The notes beneath the pieces were generated by a model, which was given only the letters and a program-made list of their open reading frames with translations, was not told the origin of the DNA and searched no databases. From NCBI RefSeq assembly GCF_018860505.1, contig NZ_JAHKPU010000032.1, positions 1 through 64,000 of the forward strand: a DNA stretch of 64,000 bases, written 5' to 3'. The translations under genes and the position numbers were made by a program. Origin of the DNA: Pacificibacter marinus (GTDB lineage Bacteria > Pseudomonadota > Alphaproteobacteria > Rhodobacterales > Rhodobacteraceae). Positions within the stretch are counted from its first letter, which is position 1, and the number at the start of each line of letters is the position of its first letter. Positions 3,612 through 46,420 of this stretch are shown piece by piece.

Positions 3612-5253
3612 GTTGGATTTAGGTCTCATTTTGACTATTGCTCTCACGCTTTTGGCCAGTTTGCATTTGGCTGTATTCCAAAAGATCAATTGGGATGAGT
3701 TTTACTATCTCTCGCAGATCCATGATTATGGGCGCGGCACTTTTTCAACCGCCTTGCAAACGATCCATGTGCATTTTGGACTTTCGCTGACTACGACAGA
3801 CCTCAACGAGGTGGATCAAGTCGTGATCGGGCGCTTGGTCATGTGGCTGGCTTTGGTAGGCACGGTCACGGCGATTTATGTCACGGCACGTGCCTTTTTC
3901 AGCCGCTCTTGCGCGCTGTTTGCGGGGCTTGTCTATTTGTCGTTCAACTACACGCTTGTGCATGGCACCAGTTTTCGCACCGATCCATCGGCCGCTTTTC
4001 TGATAATGACCTGTCTGGCCATCGCCATAAGAGCCCCCCTTGGCGTCTGGGCGATACTTGGGTTCTCGGTTTGCGCTGCTTTGTCTGCGCTGATCACTGT
4101 GAAGGTGGTGTTCTATCTGCCAGCCTTTTTGGCAGCTATTCTTTGGCGCTTATCAACAGAGCCGCGCAAGGCCCCTGTTCTTATGGCGATCTTGGCGATG
4201 CTCGCGATCAGCGCTATGCTCTTTGGTCTGGGCTACAACTGGCATCAAAGCACCTTGGCCGATGCAGGTTTGGCAGGATCCAAAGCGATGTTGTCCAATG
4301 CCGCCAACACGACCTTGATGCCGTCCATTTTGTTCCCGCGCTGGCCCTATATATTGCACAACACTTACGCATCATTGGCGCCAAGCGTTATCGTGCTTGT
4401 AGGTGCGCTTTTGTTGCTAATCAAAGGCAAACACTTAACAGGGCATGGATTGGCCGCAGTCGTGGTTTTAGGGTTGGCTTTGCCGCTGGCGTCATTCGCC
4501 ATTTATCGCAATGCATTTCCCTATTATTTCCCGTTTATTTTTCCGCCTGCAATGATTTTAAGCGCCGCTGTTTTCGAGGCCGCAAAATCCCGTGTGCCAC
4601 TTTTGGCGGGCTTGATTGTGGCCTGCCTGTTCACATCTGGCAGTTCTTGGGTGGATCGTTTGAGCGCCTCAAAGCACCCGCAAGCTGTCGTCCTTGACGC
4701 AGTGCACGAGGTGTTTCCAGAACCCGTTGCCTATATTGACCGCAATGGCTCCATCGCGCGGTTTCCCAAAGCAGGGTTCTTTATGAGCACGTGGGGCGTG
4801 TTAAATTACCGCAATGCAGGCGTGCCAGTCTTGTCACAAGCCATCAACAGCCAGACCATCCCGCTTTTGCTACTCAACAGCCCTCAGCTTGAACACGCGG
4901 TATCACCAGAGACCAGCATGACGCGAACACCACTGTTTGAACTAGACCGTGAGGCCTTAAAATCCAACTTTATCCCCCACTGGGGGCCCATTTGGGTCGC
5001 AGGCAAGACTCTGATGGCAACACCGCAAGCGCAAGTCATCACATTGCGCACCCTTGGCACCTATACGCTAGAAGCATCCATGCCTATTTCCGTAAACGGC
5101 ACCCTCTTAGGTCCTGGTGCATCAATCACAGTTACAAATGCGCCAATGAGCATTCAAAGTAATGTCGCGCAAGAAATCACATTGCGCTGGGGAAAGGATT
5201 TGGTCGTGCCACAAACGGCTGTGCCACAACAAGCGTTTTTTACTGAATTCTAG
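3592..5253 (+). CDS. GT39-like (PMT/ArnT family) membrane glycosyltransferase
   Basis: A 553-residue protein with about ten membrane segments and a soluble C-terminal third. The first periplasmic loop contains KINWDEFYYLSQIHDY; an acidic residue in this loop (the DE) is typical of GT-C enzymes that use polyprenyl-phosphate sugars. It overlaps the preceding gene by 20 nt. The set GT4-GT2-flippase-GT-C fits synthesis of a lipid-linked sugar and its transfer to a periplasmic acceptor. It ends 86 nt before a transposase gene running the other way. The acceptor is unknown. Confidence 0.78.
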   Translation: MKNYGNKLDLGLILTIALTLLASLHLAVFQKINWDEFYYLSQIHDYGRGTFSTALQTIHVHFGLSLTTTDLNEVDQVVIGRLVMWLALVGTVTAIYVTARAFFSRSCALFAGLVYLSFNYTLVHGTSFRTDPSAAFLIMTCLAIAIRAPLGVWAILGFSVCAALSALITVKVVFYLPAFLAAILWRLSTEPRKAPVLMAILAMLAISAMLFGLGYNWHQSTLADAGLAGSKAMLSNAANTTLMPSILFPRWPYILHNTYASLAPSVIVLVGALLLLIKGKHLTGHGLAAVVVLGLALPLASFAIYRNAFPYYFPFIFPPAMILSAAVFEAAKSRVPLLAGLIVACLFTSGSSWVDRLSASKHPQAVVLDAVHEVFPEPVAYIDRNGSIARFPKAGFFMSTWGVLNYRNAGVPVLSQAINSQTIPLLLLNSPQLEHAVSPETSMTRTPLFELDREALKSNFIPHWGPIWVAGKTLMATPQAQVITLRTLGTYTLEASMPISVNGTLLGPGASITVTNAPMSIQSNVAQEITLRWGKDLVVPQTAVPQQAFFTEF

Positions 5254-5289
5254 GACCCAAGCAAAGTAAGCCATCCAGTGTCGTCACAT

Positions 5290-6153
5290 TGGTAATCTCC
5301 CCATTTTTGGGGTCCAGCCGTAGAATTCAGGCGGCTGTTTACAGTTTCATTGCGGGTGTGAGGCTGCCGATGCACATATTGGGTCGCTCGTTGTTATAAG
5401 CCCAGAGCCATTTCGTTGCCTGATCCTGTGCCTGCTCGATCGTTTCAAAGATGTATTGGCTCAACCATTCGCTACGAACGGTGCGGTTGTAGCGTTCGAT
5501 GTAGGCGTTTTGCTGCGGCTTGCTGGGCTGGAGTATTCCAACCGGATGTTGCGTTTCTCAGCCCATTCTATGAGCTTTCCACTAACATACTCTGGGCCGT
5601 TATCGACGCGAATTGCTTTCGGCTGGCCGCGCCACTCGATGATTTGGTTCAAACTGCGCACGACACGTTCAGCGGGCAACGAGAAGTCTACTTCGATGCA
5701 TTGCCCTTCGCGATTAAAGTCATCCAACACGTTTAATGTGTGGATAGAGCGGCCATCTGCCAGTTGGTCCGCCATAAAATCCATGGGCCAGGTGTCGTTT
5801 GGGACCTCAGGCACGGCCAGCGACTCAAGACTATCACGTTTCAGTCGCTTCTTGGGTTTGATCCGCAGGTTCAGCTCCATCTCGCAGTAGATCCGGTAAA
5901 CCATTTTGTGGTTCCAGCCGTAGCCCTGCGCGTTGCGCAGGTACAAAAAGCATAGGCCAAATCCCCAAGATCGCTTGTCCGCTGTCAGTCGTTCCAGCCA
6001 ATCTGAGAACTCTTCGTTCTCATCACTCAGAACCGGACTGTAACGATAGCACGTCTCACTGATCTCAAACGCACGGCAGGTCAGTGCAATGCTGACCCCG
6101 TGCCGTGCGACCGCGTTCATGGCCATCTCTCGCCTTAGAGATGGTCTTTCCAC
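5290..6153 (-). mobile_element. IS3-family element, copy A, left part missing
   Basis: The element contains a frameshifted OrfB (5339-6153). Its right end is probably near 5291-5320, where CCCCATTTTTGGGG lies next to GTCCAGCC; IS3 ends often begin TGGACC. No OrfA (helix-turn-helix plus leucine zipper) is found upstream on the minus strand (6154-6430). That stretch contains GAACGTTC and other non-coding sequence, so the left end has been lost or replaced. Confidence 0.65.
5339..6153 (-). pseudogene. IS3-family transposase OrfB, frameshifted (copy A)
   Basis: DDE integrase-type transposase. The frame opening at 6153 reads [12 protein letters not shown], then [12 protein letters not shown], the first catalytic Asp region ([14 protein letters not shown]) and the second ([10 protein letters not shown]). 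After RNIRLEY, near 5535, the frame is lost by what looks like a 1-base deletion. The neighbouring frame carries the rest: [19 protein letters not shown] with the catalytic Glu, then [20 protein letters not shown] and the terminal PAMKL, stopping at 5339. A protein with all three catalytic residues therefore cannot be made without recoding. It lacks an OrfA partner here. Confidence 0.85.
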
Positions 6154-6431
6154 GGGGCCTAAGTAGACGGTTTTGACCTTCGTGCCTGAGCTGTTTTCGG
6201 TTTTCGAGGTGCGGGTGCCATCGGGCCACTAGGTGTAAGGCGCTGTGCCGCCGCCTGTGGCGCTCAGAGGTCGGTTCTAGACATTGACGGCATAGTGCCA
6301 ATGGCGGCTTATCAAAAACGGATGCCCGAAATTCTATTTGCAGCGAACGTTCGATTCCCGCCGATTCTGTTGAAAAACTAACGGTTGCGAGTGCAGAAAT
6401 GGGACTTCCAAATTCGGCGCGAGCGCCTTTT

Positions 6432-6638
6432 TTATCGGGCTTTGCTCGTTTGCTGCGGTGCAGGAAAGATCCCTCTCGTGCATTGGCTTTGCCAATACCC
6501 TGCCGGGCAATGCTTGGCTAGTTTGCGGAGGTTTTGGGCGGTGGCAGCGAGTAGAAATTCGTCATTTGTCGCAAGCGGGGTCGTCTCGCTATCGCGCTCG
6601 GTCGTCACTGGATCTGTCACGCTTTCGTGCCGCCCCAA
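6432..6638 (-). pseudogene. DDE transposase C-terminal fragment
   Basis: The fragment reads DEFLLAATAQNLRKLAK, a C-terminal signature of DDE transposases of the IS1182/IS5 superfamily. After that it runs into a palindromic insert (6482-6513) and unrelated sequence. No catalytic region is present. It abuts the 3' end of IS3 copy B (stop at 6647), so copy B probably jumped into or next to this older element. Confidence 0.55.
6482..6513 (-). repeat. Palindromic insert A (family II)
   Basis: On the plus strand the stem arms are ATTGGC and GCCAAT with loop TTT (6482-6496). They are followed by AATACCCTGCCGGGCAATGC, which contains a second small palindrome (TGCC-G-GGCA). It lies inside the DDE transposase fragment and ends its recognisable sequence. 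The same second half recurs at 7497-7516 and 8027-8046. Confidence 0.7.
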
Positions 6639-6831
6639 GTGCTCGTTTAAGCCACTTTCCTTTCGAAAGCGACGGGGCTTTTCCAGCCCAGTGCTGAGTG
6701 GCGGCGGCGCGAATTTACGAGGCCATTGATGTATTCAAAGATTGCCATCTCAGCTTTCCGTCTTGTCTCCCAAGGATGCCGCCAGATCAGTTCAGCCTTG
6801 ATCACTGCCCGGCAGGGGTTTTGAAGAAGGT

Positions 6832-6877
6832 GAGGAGGATCAGAAAACAGTCTGGGAGACTGTTTTCCCGACGCAAG
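6832..6877 (-). repeat. Palindromic insert F (family I), 46 nt
   Basis: A perfect 11-bp stem, arm GAAAACAGTCT, with loop GGG lies at 6843-6867. The insert splits the transposase sequence between the AAVE and TFFKT codons. Left and right of the stem are GATC and CCCG, which also flank insert H (7795-7838). A short family II-like scrap, ACTGCCCGGCAGGG, lies 16 nt away at 6803-6816. Confidence 0.8.
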
Positions 6878-6888
6878 ACTGCCGCGTT

Positions 6889-6946
6889 TTGCGCCTTTGA
6901 ATGATCTCCCAGATCATTCAATCCGCTGGCGCGGACCAACTTAAAC
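6889..6946 (-). repeat. Palindromic insert G (family I), about 58 nt
   Basis: A perfect 11-bp stem, arm TTGAATGATCT, with loop CCC lies at 6897-6921. It sits inside an outer pair GCGCC / GGCGC (6891-6942 region). The insert separates GNCY from the following NAAV codons of the transposase. The stem end TCT-CCC-AGA is shared with insert F, although the outer stem sequence is completely different. Confidence 0.8.
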
Positions 6947-7227
6947 TCATAGCAATTTCCTTTGCCGCTCATCGATATCTTGAAGCCGTGCTTGCGTAGG
7001 ATTTTCTGGTAATCGTGGGAACAGTATTGCGACCCACGATCCGTGTGATCGATACAGCCTTTTGGTGGTTTCCGGAACGCGATGGCCATATTCAACGCCC
7101 GGATTGCTAAATCGCGTTTCATTCGATTGCTTACAGCCCAGCCGATCACGCGCCTCGAATACAGGTCCAAGATGACCGCTAGGTACAACCATCCTTCACG
7201 TGTCCAAATGTAACTGATGTCACCTGC

Positions 7228-7271
7228 CTGTTATCTGACAGGGTATTGCGCAGCAATGTCCCGAGAAGGCA
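7228..7271 (-). repeat. Palindromic insert D (family II)
   Basis: Read on the minus strand it starts with the same 31 bp found at 8004-8034: a GGGACATTGC arm, loop TGC and arm GCAATACCC. It then carries a different second palindrome, CCTGT-CAGATA-ACAGG. It replaces the codons for W-A in the transposase KWAGD motif and shifts the frame. Confidence 0.8.
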
Positions 7272-7473
7272 TTTCTGATTGGGCGCATCAGCGTTGAAGT
7301 CACGATTCAGCAGGTTCGGTGCGATGTTGAACTTATGATTGCTGCCTGTGGTCACCTTATGTTTGCGGGCTCGCACAACGGATATGCCGTTCTCGCGCAT
7401 CAATCTGCCGACTTGGCGGTGACCGACGTCCAGACCAATCTCTTTAAGCTCCTCAGTCATGCGTGGCCTGCCA

Positions 7474-7513
7474 CTCTCTGGACATTTCCTACGGAAATAC
7501 CCTGCCGTGCAAC
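7474..7513 (-). repeat. Palindromic insert B (family II), about 40 nt
   Basis: The stem arms are ATTTCC and GGAAAT with loop TAC (7484-7498). They are followed by ACCCTGCCGTGCAACGC. It interrupts the OrfB frame between LSLGSY and GRPRMTEE and brings in a stop codon. Confidence 0.75.
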
Positions 7514-7682
7514 GCATAGCTACCAAGACTGAGACGCGACTGTTCTTTGATATGCGCCAACGTCACCATATCAGACCGTTGTCTGCGACTGGCTGTGCGG
7601 TTATGAAACGCCCGTAAGCCGCGCGCGCTGACATTCGTCACATGGCACATCCGTCCAATCGAAAATGCAGATTGGCGTTCTT

Positions 7683-7721
7683 CCCCTCTTATCGAAACTG
7701 CGTTTCGACTGCAGGGCAGTG
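7683..7721 (-). repeat. Palindromic insert E (family II-like)
   Basis: The first hairpin has arms TCGAAAC and GTTTCGA with loop TGC (7692-7708). The second has arms CTGC and GCAG with a 3-nt loop (7709-7719). It lies between the OrfA stop and the first OrfB block, after the KAVRFI-like codons. The second half only partly matches the AATACCCTGCC consensus. Confidence 0.65.
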
Positions 7722-7794
7722 GATAAACCTAAACCTCACGGCTTTTGGCTCGCAAAGAACACCGTGGCCTTTTTTAGAATCTCCCTCTTTCTCC

Positions 7795-7838
7795 GGGCAA
7801 GCCGTCCCCCAGACGGTTTGCATATCCGGATCAAGTCC
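7795..7838 (-). repeat. Palindromic insert H (family I), frame-preserving
   Basis: The stem arms are GCAAGCCGTC and GACGGTTTGC, with one G-U pair and one mismatch next to a CCC loop. It is flanked by CCGG and GATC like insert F. Compared with the expected OrfA sequence LLKEEREILKK, it adds a net 45 nt, so the protein would gain 15 residues without losing the frame. Confidence 0.75.
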
Positions 7839-8001
7839 TTGAGAAGACGGTTCTCGCGTCGAAGCCGATCATTCTCTTTGGCGAGGTCCAAGTCCTCTTT
7901 CGACACCACATCCGTGCCGCGATGTGCTGTGATCTTTCGCATGCGTGCTCGGACCCGTAGCGCTACACATGCTCAATGTTCAGCGTCGACATGCCAACGC
8001 C

Positions 8002-8046
8002 CACCTTCTCGGGACATTGCTGCGCAATACCCTGCCAGGCAGTGCA
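8002..8046 (-). repeat. Palindromic insert C (family II)
   Basis: A GGGACATTGC arm, TGC loop and GCAATACCC arm are followed by CTGCCAGGCAGTGCATGC. Its first 31 bp (8004-8034) are a perfect inverted copy of 7239-7269. It lies inside OrfA just after VCRRH. Confidence 0.8.
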
Positions 8047-8135
8047 TGCCGCCGACACACATCGACAGTCTTCTCGCCAGCTTCCTGTTCCTTGATCATC
8101 GCTATGATTTGTTCGTCCGTAAATCGTGCCTTCAT

Positions 8136-8476
8136 TTGTCCGTCCTTTTGTTGGGCAGACTCTACACAAATCTGGAGGAGTTTTAGGGGCTCAGGTCAGG
8201 TCCATAGGAACGATAACGGGGTGCTAAGCCTTTACCTTAGATTCTGGCAACAGAAAAATGAGACCAAGTAAAACTCAAGTGTGAGGTGAATTTTAACCAC
8301 GAATTTCACCATGGCTCTAATCCCAGAAAAATATATAAAATAGTCGTTCGCTCGGTAGGTCGTCGTCCTATCACGATAGATCATGCCCAGTACAGATTAG
8401 GACCATTGGAGTTTCCTAAAAAACTTCAGCGTTGGACCAAATGGCAATCTAAAACCCGCTATTCTGTATCGGATGT
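8136..8476. other. Intergenic stretch left of IS3 copy B
   Basis: It contains the probable left end of IS3 copy B (GGGGCTCAGGTCA, 8186-8198) and then about 270 bp in which I see no coding region, RNA gene or clear terminator. It follows the 3' end of the sugar transferase gene on the minus strand. Confidence 0.4.
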
Positions 8477-9118
8477 TCATAAGACTGCTGGAATGGTTGC
8501 TACAAGGATGTGAAAATATCGACCAATGGAAGCAGGGGTGACATATTCGAGATCAAGATCTAGCATCTGGATGGGACTGAGCTTGTTTCGACCGCTGATT
8601 TGCCATAACCTGGTCATGCTCGGAGGCACTTCATGGCGCAACGCGTATTTCTTCGGGAAGAGAGAGACTTCTTCCACAGTATGCGGGCGTGGTCCCACAA
8701 GCGATATATGCCCAAGCATTACGCTGAATAGTTGCGGAAGTTCGTCAAGGCTTGTTTTTCGAAGAATCTTCCCAGTCTTGGTGATCCTTTTTTCCATACC
8801 CGTCTTGTACTGCCCCCGTGAAGGGTCGGCGGTCTTGAGCACTTCCAGAAGATGTTCATTTCCGGCGTTAGTATCATGTGTCCTGGTCCGGAACTTGAAA
8901 ATACTGAAGATCTTGCCTCGATACCCAACACGTTCCTGCAGGTAAAATATCGGGCCCGGAGAGTCTATCCGAACCGAGAGCGCGGATATCAACAGAATAG
9001 GCGCTGCGATGATGATAAGAAACGGGGTCATCAGAAAATCCATCACGCATTTGTATCTGGGGACCAAATACCTTTCGGACAATATTTCTTGATTATGATC
9101 TGTCTTTAGGGAACTCAC
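8477..9118 (-). CDS. Undecaprenyl-phosphate sugar transferase (bacterial sugar transferase family)
   Basis: Initiating phospho-sugar transferase that moves a sugar-1-phosphate from a nucleotide sugar to undecaprenyl phosphate at the inner membrane. One hydrophobic segment lies at about 28-48, followed by the family blocks VRIDSPGPIFYLQERVG, IFKFRT, LRKTSLDELPQL and LVGPRPHT. It ends at ATIPAVL, a few residues shorter than many homologues. The start is GTG at 9118; the upstream aminotransferase remnant stops at 9127, so the two genes once formed a sugar-modifying operon. Its usual partner, an amino-sugar-forming DegT enzyme, is broken, so its present role is unclear. Confidence 0.85.
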   Translation of the reverse strand: MSSLKTDHNQEILSERYLVPRYKCVMDFLMTPFLIIIAAPILLISALSVRIDSPGPIFYLQERVGYRGKIFSIFKFRTRTHDTNAGNEHLLEVLKTADPSRGQYKTGMEKRITKTGKILRKTSLDELPQLFSVMLGHISLVGPRPHTVEEVSLFPKKYALRHEVPPSMTRLWQISGRNKLSPIQMLDLDLEYVTPASIGRYFHILVATIPAVL

Positions 9119-9126
9119 GTGACTAG

Positions 9127-9735
9127 CTACTCTACTAGATCGTTGAAATGATCTGCGATCCGCAACACAACTTCATCACTTAAGCCCAGACCGGACGGGA
9201 GGGAAAGACCGCGCCCAGCGGCCTCTTGAGCTCTGGGCAGCGAGACATGATATGCGCCGGATGTGATCGCAGGCTGCATATGGCAGGGAACGGGGTAATG
9301 TATACCAACGGGCACGCCTTTGCGTCGCAACTCTTCGCAAATGCGATCCCTATCGGCGATCTGCACCACAACTTGGAGTGTCGCGCGAGACGACCCCAGG
9401 CGGATCATTGAAAATAAAAGCAGGAGGCTGAGCCAGATGGTTCCTGTAGAGATCAAATATCTCGTTCTTTCGTTTATTCCAACTCTGCAGATGCGGCAAT
9501 TTTATTGAAAGGATGCGCGCTTGAATTGCAGACCATGTACAGCGCAGAAATTCATTGCGTCATCCATATTACAGGCATGACCAAAGAGATGGACTGCAAT
9601 GAGTGCCCGCGTCTTCGAGACTTAGCAGTAGGCTATCCACTTCGATATCACAAAAAACTGGTGTCGCCCCACATCTTATGGCGGCAGCTGCCGTGGCGAA
9701 GAATGTGTTGGCCGGAAGAATGACCTCAGCGCCTG
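9127..9735 (-). pseudogene. DegT/DnrJ/EryC1 aminotransferase, broken
   Basis: PLP-dependent sugar aminotransferase family, normally about 370 residues. An N-terminal piece VILPANTFFATAAAAIRCGA-TPVFCDI (near 9640-9735) is in one frame. A second piece, ALIAVHLFGHACNMDDAM (near 9550-9605), is in another. The C-terminal 80 residues, VVQIADRDRICEELRRKGVP to DHFNDLVE (9127-9400), are in a third. The centre, with the catalytic Lys, is missing. The 5' part is replaced at about 9735 by an IS5-like transposase fragment read in the same frame. Confidence 0.8.
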
Positions 9736-9931
9736 CAGTTGTCTGTTTCCATGGCTCAGCGTTTCGACGAGGCGGAACGACTGCGGCCGTGCTGCGGTCG
9801 GAGATGGCGCCGAAAGATTTGTGCGTGTCGAAGGCGCCATCAGCGGTGACGCTGTCGATATCATGATCCGTGTCGATCTGGGCAAGCAAATCTGGAAGCA
9901 TCGATGCGTCGACGACGTTACTGCTGCTCAC
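9736..9931 (-). pseudogene. IS5-family transposase fragment
   Basis: The stretch SVTADGAFDTHKSFGAISDR with PPRRNAEPWKQTTAGA is the second catalytic Asp region of IS5-type transposases. Only about 65 residues remain. The reading frame continues without a break into the DegT remnant (VILPANTFF), creating a false fusion protein. The other side meets the IS30-like remnant at about 9985. Confidence 0.75.
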
Positions 9932-46385: not shown

Positions 46386-46420
46386 AAAACGCTGGACCAC
46401 AAACATGGTCCAGCGTTTCT
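46386..46420. terminator. Bidirectional terminator after dioxygenase gene
   Basis: The arms AAACGCTGGACCA and TGGTCCAGCGTTT, 13 bp, with a 6-nt loop, lie between converging genes. Confidence 0.85.

Follow-up and report, generated by a model that had tools for sequence, protein, structure and literature searches.

How does a single transposase gene come to carry nine short inserts and read on after each of them? The question is raised by a contig of Pacificibacter marinus (NZ_JAHKPU010000032.1, assembly GCF_018860505.1), of which a stretch of 64,000 nt, referred to below as the window, was analysed. An IS3-family transposase gene on the minus strand, spanning 6610..8060 (approximate limits) and recognised by its rve and HTH_21 domains, was aligned with a paralogue on contig C16 and with two intact IS3 elements from Rhodobacteraceae plasmids (CP049029 and NZ_CP085160). 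Between 6804 and 8044 the alignment contains nine inserts of 14, 42, 57, 41, 43, 39, 45, 38 and 41 nt, all of which are missing from both intact elements, and the transposase sequence picks up again after each. The first-pass annotation, made from the letters alone, had counted seven or more short inserts in one IS3 copy and one more in a neighbouring remnant, and both parts of the count are borne out. It had also raised the possibility that intact IS3 relatives contain the same palindromes at the same codons; the two aligned here do not, and sites are shared only with copies that are interrupted as well. As argued below, all but one of the inserts belong to two very small structured DNA families, A and B, of about 41-43 nt, which recur in transposase genes of Rhodobacteraceae.

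The interrupted locus

The element in the neighbouring IS remnant, a 42-nt copy of family A on the plus strand (6471..6512), was found by the genome search with the family A model. Within the interrupted gene, the 14-nt insert called by alignment at 6804..6817 (minus strand) matches the 3' end of family A and may be a truncated copy or a scar; a full A of 41 nt occupies this site in copy L095 of genome G010. It is followed by two family B elements, B1 of 42 nt (6832..6873, plus strand) and B2, a 57-nt insert (6889..6945, minus strand), which, like the 45-nt insert B3 (7791..7835, minus strand), are recognised by alignment, fold and the B model. Two family A elements identified by alignment and the A model interrupt the coding sequence at defined codons, one of 41 nt (7229..7269, minus strand) between PNQK and WAGD, and one of 43 nt (7472..7514, plus strand, antisense to the gene) between SLGSY and GRPRM. 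The 39-nt insert at 7683..7721 (plus strand, from the alignment) looks by eye like a divergent family A and is not a model hit; its limits were placed by eye, one alignment having placed the insert differently, and it is found in two G010 copies, not in the C16 paralogue. The 38-nt insert at 7939..7976, called by alignment with no strand assigned, is common to the C16 paralogue, fits neither family and folds no better than shuffled sequences (z 0.10), so that the first-pass division into two structural families stands for A and B and does not extend to this insert. Finally, the 41-nt A at 8004..8044 (plus strand, from the model search) is its own genome's best match to the A model. Its 3' flank resembles the flank of an A in another IS3 (C24), and it is thus probably a recombination junction with another IS3.

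The C16 paralogue is 90% identical to the window IS3, and most inserts are common to both. It has no insert at 7683 and carries an extra family A element near there; therefore, insert occupancy varies between IS3 copies.

A second IS3-family transposase fragment (rve) adjoins the interrupted copy at 5461-6153 and is overlapped by a sub-threshold match to the Rfam model isrN (6004-6148; 31.7 bits, the cut-off being 44). A weak match to BASRCI153, a Brucella sRNA model, covers a family B element at 6837-6877 (21.1 bits against a cut-off of 137) and is probably due to chance or a shared type of hairpin. The permissive Rfam search of window positions 5000-9000 gave three matches, every one under its gathering score. 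Beyond the locus, 8477-9931 contains a bacterial sugar transferase and then separate DegT-type aminotransferase fragments, apparently from a broken gene, one of which also has a weak DDE transposase match. The longest of the hairpins listed, with a perfect 13-bp stem and a 6-nt loop (46387-46418), is terminator-like by eye and belongs to neither A nor B.

Fold and distribution of the two families

Family A is usually 41 nt long, with the consensus CCCTCTCGGGACATTGCTGCGCAATGCCCTGCCGGGCAGTG and the ends CCCTCTC and CAGTG, and its model was built from 12 copies. The nested fold is composed of an outer helix of 3 bp, an internal loop TCTC/TGCC (4x4), an inner helix of 3 bp, a bulged A, and a 6-bp stem closed by a 3-nt loop. 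Among 52 ungapped copies, 10 of the 12 pairs changed on both sides, and the covariation score is.331 against a shuffled mean of.097. These copies were hand-picked for the 41-nt length from 92 model hits, which the model had recognised partly by structure, the outer 3-bp helix being absent from the search model. Slid versions of the fold score.029 to.074. A reading of A as three separate short hairpins was tried and rejected, the local hairpins scoring only.188 against.331 for the nested fold. Folded singly, three A copies are unremarkable compared with shuffles (z -0.3 to -1.5); consequently, the case for the A structure is a comparative one, made by covariation across many copies.

Family B is about 43 nt long. 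A 5-nt loop, for example TGGGR, closes its 10-bp stem, and there is often an additional outer stem with a bulge on the 5' side. The B model was built from 7 sequences of one genus and is out of register at the outer stem. Three B copies tested singly have strong folds (z -4.1 to -5.5 against shuffles). The earlier claim that each insert folds as a hairpin agrees with the three B copies and, through covariation, with A; a single A does not stand out, and the 38-nt insert folds no better than shuffles.

The first-pass annotation had proposed searching the source genome and its relatives, and that search returned further copies of both families. For family A, there are 32 model hits at E<=1 in the own genome, corresponding to about 30 copies, and matches in 16 of 41 genomes including the own one, in 0 of 16 genomes of other families, and in 96 of 248 sampled genera of Rhodobacteraceae; five viral contigs match as well. 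A gapped pattern scan of named genomes gave at least 120 stretches, a count in which divergent A is under-represented because the pattern fixes both ends. Judged by their titles, the sources among the 80 matches listed are Rhodobacterales or unplaced alphaproteobacterial bins, together with one Labrenzia. Longer-stemmed A variants with right flanks alike were seen at L196, L198, L229, L233 and L253. Family B is less common than family A, with 9 copies in the own genome by its model, matches in 11 of 25 genomes including the own one (one outside the family, weak), and, across 100 named loci, 10 places that account for 12 hits.

Insertion without duplication at a preferred motif

Are these elements genuine insertions? 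A structure scan of the loci gave 310 A elements, some by chance, of which 169 had a well-alignable homologous empty site. With the element taken from its first triplet to its tail, 103 of the 169 comparisons are gapless within 15 nt of the junction; in the others, the joined flanks are one base short (36), one base extra (16) or otherwise different (14). The best subject was retained for each element, which favours exact empty sites, and gaps over 8 were excluded. At these 103 sites the insertion of A is exact, without target duplication. The first-pass reading of insertions after which the codons resume, as opposed to replacement by drift, agrees with this result.

The insertion sites exhibit a common motif. 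In the flanks of 136 A copies, C stands before the element and GAYG after it; the 136 include L257, which lacks a hairpin and probably matches by chance. The full C^GAYG occurs at 28 of 94 thinned sites, where 0.36 would be expected (49 of 136 and 0.52 before thinning), and is thus preferred by A, not obligatory; its bottom-strand form is CRTC^G. Since C^GAYG is present in the aligned empty sites, the motif belongs to the target and not to the element. By eye, the IS3 sites of the window mostly fit it poorly. Grouping the targets by outer triplet or tail gave hints, in that the ACC and CAC groups differ. These differences rest on small groups, and consequently no claim of a guide is made.

Enrichment in transposase genes

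Where do the A copies reside? With same-locus queries excluded, a transposase match lies within 400 nt of 83 of the 136 copies. For control positions, taken from the same loci at a distance of 1.5 kb or more, the figure is 8 of 400. An earlier control, with queries mostly from A flanks, gave 90 of 136 against 8 of 400, and the few queries from outside A flanks matched near 37 of 136 copies and 3 of 400 controls. In the rest of the window, 4 of 400 positions have a transposase match. Query expansion brings the figure to 102 of 136 copies; clusters containing mirror-frame hits were left out of the counts. The hosts, identified by Pfam domains with IS family names assigned partly by eye, belong to IS3, IS5, IS66, IS110, IS256, IS21, IS630 and an IS481-like group. 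Most hosts of family A are transposase genes, and these come from several IS families. Relative to the coding strand of the nearest transposase, 55 copies are sense and 47 antisense (37 to 31 after thinning).

Other neighbourhoods occur as well. For example, A with similar flanks was seen in three sources (L175 1346-1386, L286 1472-1512 and L129 1023-1063), with prophage-like neighbours by eye, and the A copy of L273 adjoins a tyrosine recombinase, not a transposase. The longer-stemmed variants named above are a further exception to the transposase setting.

Then, could A consist of ordinary REP-type repeats that are over-represented in IS copies merely through hitchhiking on IS transposition? 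Its size, its palindrome, the tag-like CRTC flank and its presence in Alphaproteobacteria would be in line with this, and some IS copies do bring A to new places. However, the model search of the whole genome detects intergenic copies too, yet 26 of 30 copies in the own genome are near transposase sequence, and 68 of 94 sites are still near a transposase once near-identical sites have been thinned. We regard this explanation as unlikely.

Comparison with known small repeats

Several known kinds of small element resemble A in part. Rickettsia palindromic elements insert in frame and add a peptide to proteins, whereas the 41 nt of A are not a multiple of three and its orientation is mixed. A target-site duplication (TSD), made by the DDE transposase of a MITE, is not found for A, most of whose empty sites that are not gapless are one base off. 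PATEs of the IS200/IS605 type insert without TSD beside a preferred tetranucleotide and are mobilised by a Y1 HUH transposase via guide pairing; A likewise has no TSD and a preferred tetranucleotide, although its own genome is without a resident Y1. The very small mobile repeats of cyanobacteria treated by Elhai in 2008 are reportedly tiny and structured, with an unknown mover, and differ from A and B in host group, sequence and niche.

The closest known kind for both families was judged to be the REP-like repeats, especially the CGTC-tagged REPs of Alphaproteobacteria. These repeats, which include the Rickettsia RPE-4 and RPE-6, have no dedicated transposase and no known mover, and show a stem of 8-9 bp, a loop of 4-5 nt and a CCA-like tail (Di Nocera 2013, PMC3733652). 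A is likewise a small palindrome, flanked at one end by a tetranucleotide, mostly alphaproteobacterial, without a dedicated transposase and sometimes in genes. The differences are that A, at about 41 nt, has a terminal loop of 3 nt, an internal loop of 4x4 and a bulged A, and neither the stem, the loop nor the tail of these REPs, and that B has the 5-nt loop but a stem of 10 bp. A possible counterpart of the CGTC tag is the bottom-strand flank CRTC of A, which is supplied by the empty target. CGTC REPs are mostly intergenic, whereas A is found mainly in transposases, with exact empty sites and no TSD. GTAG REPs and REPINs are short hairpins thought to be moved by RAYT, a Y1-type tyrosine transposase (PMC3116915, PMC3733652). 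A has no GTAG tag, its flank logo being C^GAYG and its ends as given above, and no Y1 gene was found in its own genome. In a term search of the main text on RepRanger (PMC12306157), Rhodobacter and Ruegeria were not found. In the literature on palindromic and small mobile repeats and on Rhodobacteraceae, covered at the level of listed titles and abstract openings with most subscription papers outside this coverage, no earlier description of A or B was found. Family A works like a REP-type nano-element, yet it lacks the stem, the loop and the tail of CGTC REPs and occupies another niche.

Another possibility is that A consists of folded recombination sites, the folded strand being inserted at secondary sites by a tyrosine recombinase, as integron integrases do with attC, whose conserved core site is cleaved by IntI. 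The architecture of attC is brought to mind by the outer stem, the symmetric 4x4 loop, the inner stem, the bulged A and the hairpin at the tip, and TSDs are absent. However, no attC core motif was seen, judged by its consensus, and excision of a lone site is not expected. This origin seems improbable.

Interrupted copies and their apparent movement

The first-pass annotation had called the host transposases decayed, which has to be revised. With the insert columns omitted, the ORFB frame has 0 stops in 282 codons in both the window and C16 copies. Apart from the inserts, the ORF of the window copy departs in length from that of SC52 by 1 nt at two points next to inserts and through a rearrangement of its 5' end. 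One stop is present in ORFA of C16, and one stop and a 1-nt deletion in the G010 copy. The host transposase genes are not generally decayed.

Some insert-bearing IS copies also seem to have moved by transposition. Genome G070 contains an IS5-like stretch of 919-923 nt at three places with differing flanks; the three are 100% identical, include DDE-domain sequence and the same two A, and end in a manner consistent with TA duplications. No identical A-free copy was found in G070, where the closest other relatives reach 73-75% identity. An IS3-type copy of G110, with an rve domain, two A and matching ends, is flanked by GCT on either side; further copies are 97-99% identical to it or to its sister, not all with flanks of this kind. 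In G007, a 1411-nt repeat (rve, HTH_21 and HTH_Tnp_1) with an internal B is present at three loci at 99.4%. The simple reading is that the insert-bearing copies moved in trans. The earlier interpretation as moving inserts is supported, with the correction that some of their carriers seem to have moved too.

The C16 and G010 copies have six insert sites in common, one of them represented by the 14-nt remnant in C16. Their exons are about as distant from each other as either is from an intact IS3 (dS 1.21, dN/dS.083). The shared sites may be due to repeat entry, to recombination between IS copies or to selection on interrupted transposases. Identical A also occurs at one site in IS paralogues that are only 79-87% identical. 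Gene conversion was considered for these cases and rejected: the 15-nt flanks are 73-87% (left) and 87-93% (right) identical, not clearly raised, which favours recurrent insertion. The right flank beside A is perhaps raised in L157/L158, and L159/L160, 95% identical overall, are uninformative in this respect. In the C2 copy, one hybrid A stands in place of the stretch between two A sites. Hybrids of this kind were noted at L018 637-677 and L099 904-944, each with the loss of the DNA that separates two A sites in a single IS3. Therefore, A copies seem to act as recombination points.

Could the inserts instead behave like introns and be cut out of the transposase mRNA, or else be skipped by the ribosome, leaving the transposases functional? 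Mitochondrial byp elements, for instance, are small hairpins lodged in coding genes; the codons resume cleanly after them, and they are bypassed in translation. Splicing or bypass was first suggested by the low dN/dS between the two copies with six sites in common, and the frames open between inserts and the three identical A-bearing copies in G070, with no identical A-free one found, would fit as well. However, a structure-dependent RNA process requires one fixed sense orientation, and the mixed orientation of A counts against RNA removal and sets A apart from byp elements. In addition, insert-bearing copies can transpose in trans, and the copy in G010 carries both a stop and a deletion of 1 nt. 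An RNA-level explanation is consequently very doubtful. That the hairpins are a host defence, planted in transposase genes to silence IS elements, is highly improbable: the strong enrichment in transposases of several families and in both orientations would suit it, but insert-bearing IS copies appear to have transposed and the preferred target is a short motif.

Candidate movers and meaning

Which enzyme could move A? In the own genome, which is 96.7% complete, no match to a Y1 transposase, and hence no RAYT, was found; the first-pass annotation had noted that none lies in the window. RAYT was accordingly dropped as a resident mover in the own genome. Matches to Y2 (IS91-type) and to reverse transcriptase (RVT_1) were absent from it as well. 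Across the 248 genera, Y1 is present in 25, A in 96, and both in 16. A occurs in 30 of the 46 genera with Y1 or Y2 and in 66 of the 202 without (OR 3.9, p 8e-5, uncorrected for phylogeny). Y2 is associated with A (p.005), carriers of reverse transcriptase are not significantly so (p.19), and the IS66 control shows no association (p.36). Split by IS66, the link of Y1 or Y2 to A has p.055 with IS66 and p.0003 without. Neither Y1 nor Y2 is present in 66 of the 96 A-bearing genomes; therefore, the association is only a hint to the mover.

On balance, A and B are probably tiny non-autonomous mobile elements that insert without TSD, mainly in transposase genes, and hitchhike on IS; that they are mobile hairpins at all is very probable. 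Because the folded structure is kept via compensatory changes, the mobile form of A may be read as a folded single strand. An HUH-type single-strand transposase acting in trans, lost or transient, could excise the element, and the excised strand would be pasted 3' of the CRTC tetranucleotide; a mover of this type is a tentative proposal. The concentration in transposases would reflect a niche that is harmless and also copies the passenger.

It is even conceivable, though we would not call it probable, that A and B found a class of transposon-specialised nano-elements, namely folded strands of 41-43 nt that would seek out transposase genes, or IS DNA in the course of transposing, insert there without duplication (A at C^GAYG), and be hyperparasites across Rhodobacteraceae, with an enzyme not yet recognised as their mover. 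For family A there are more than 100 sites known in both the empty and the filled state, along with a sharply defined target motif and a fold supported by covariation, and consequently its mover and its transposing strand become testable. These results suggest that insertion sequences carry tiny passengers of their own, a level of parasitism that in annotation would show up as nothing more than damaged transposases.
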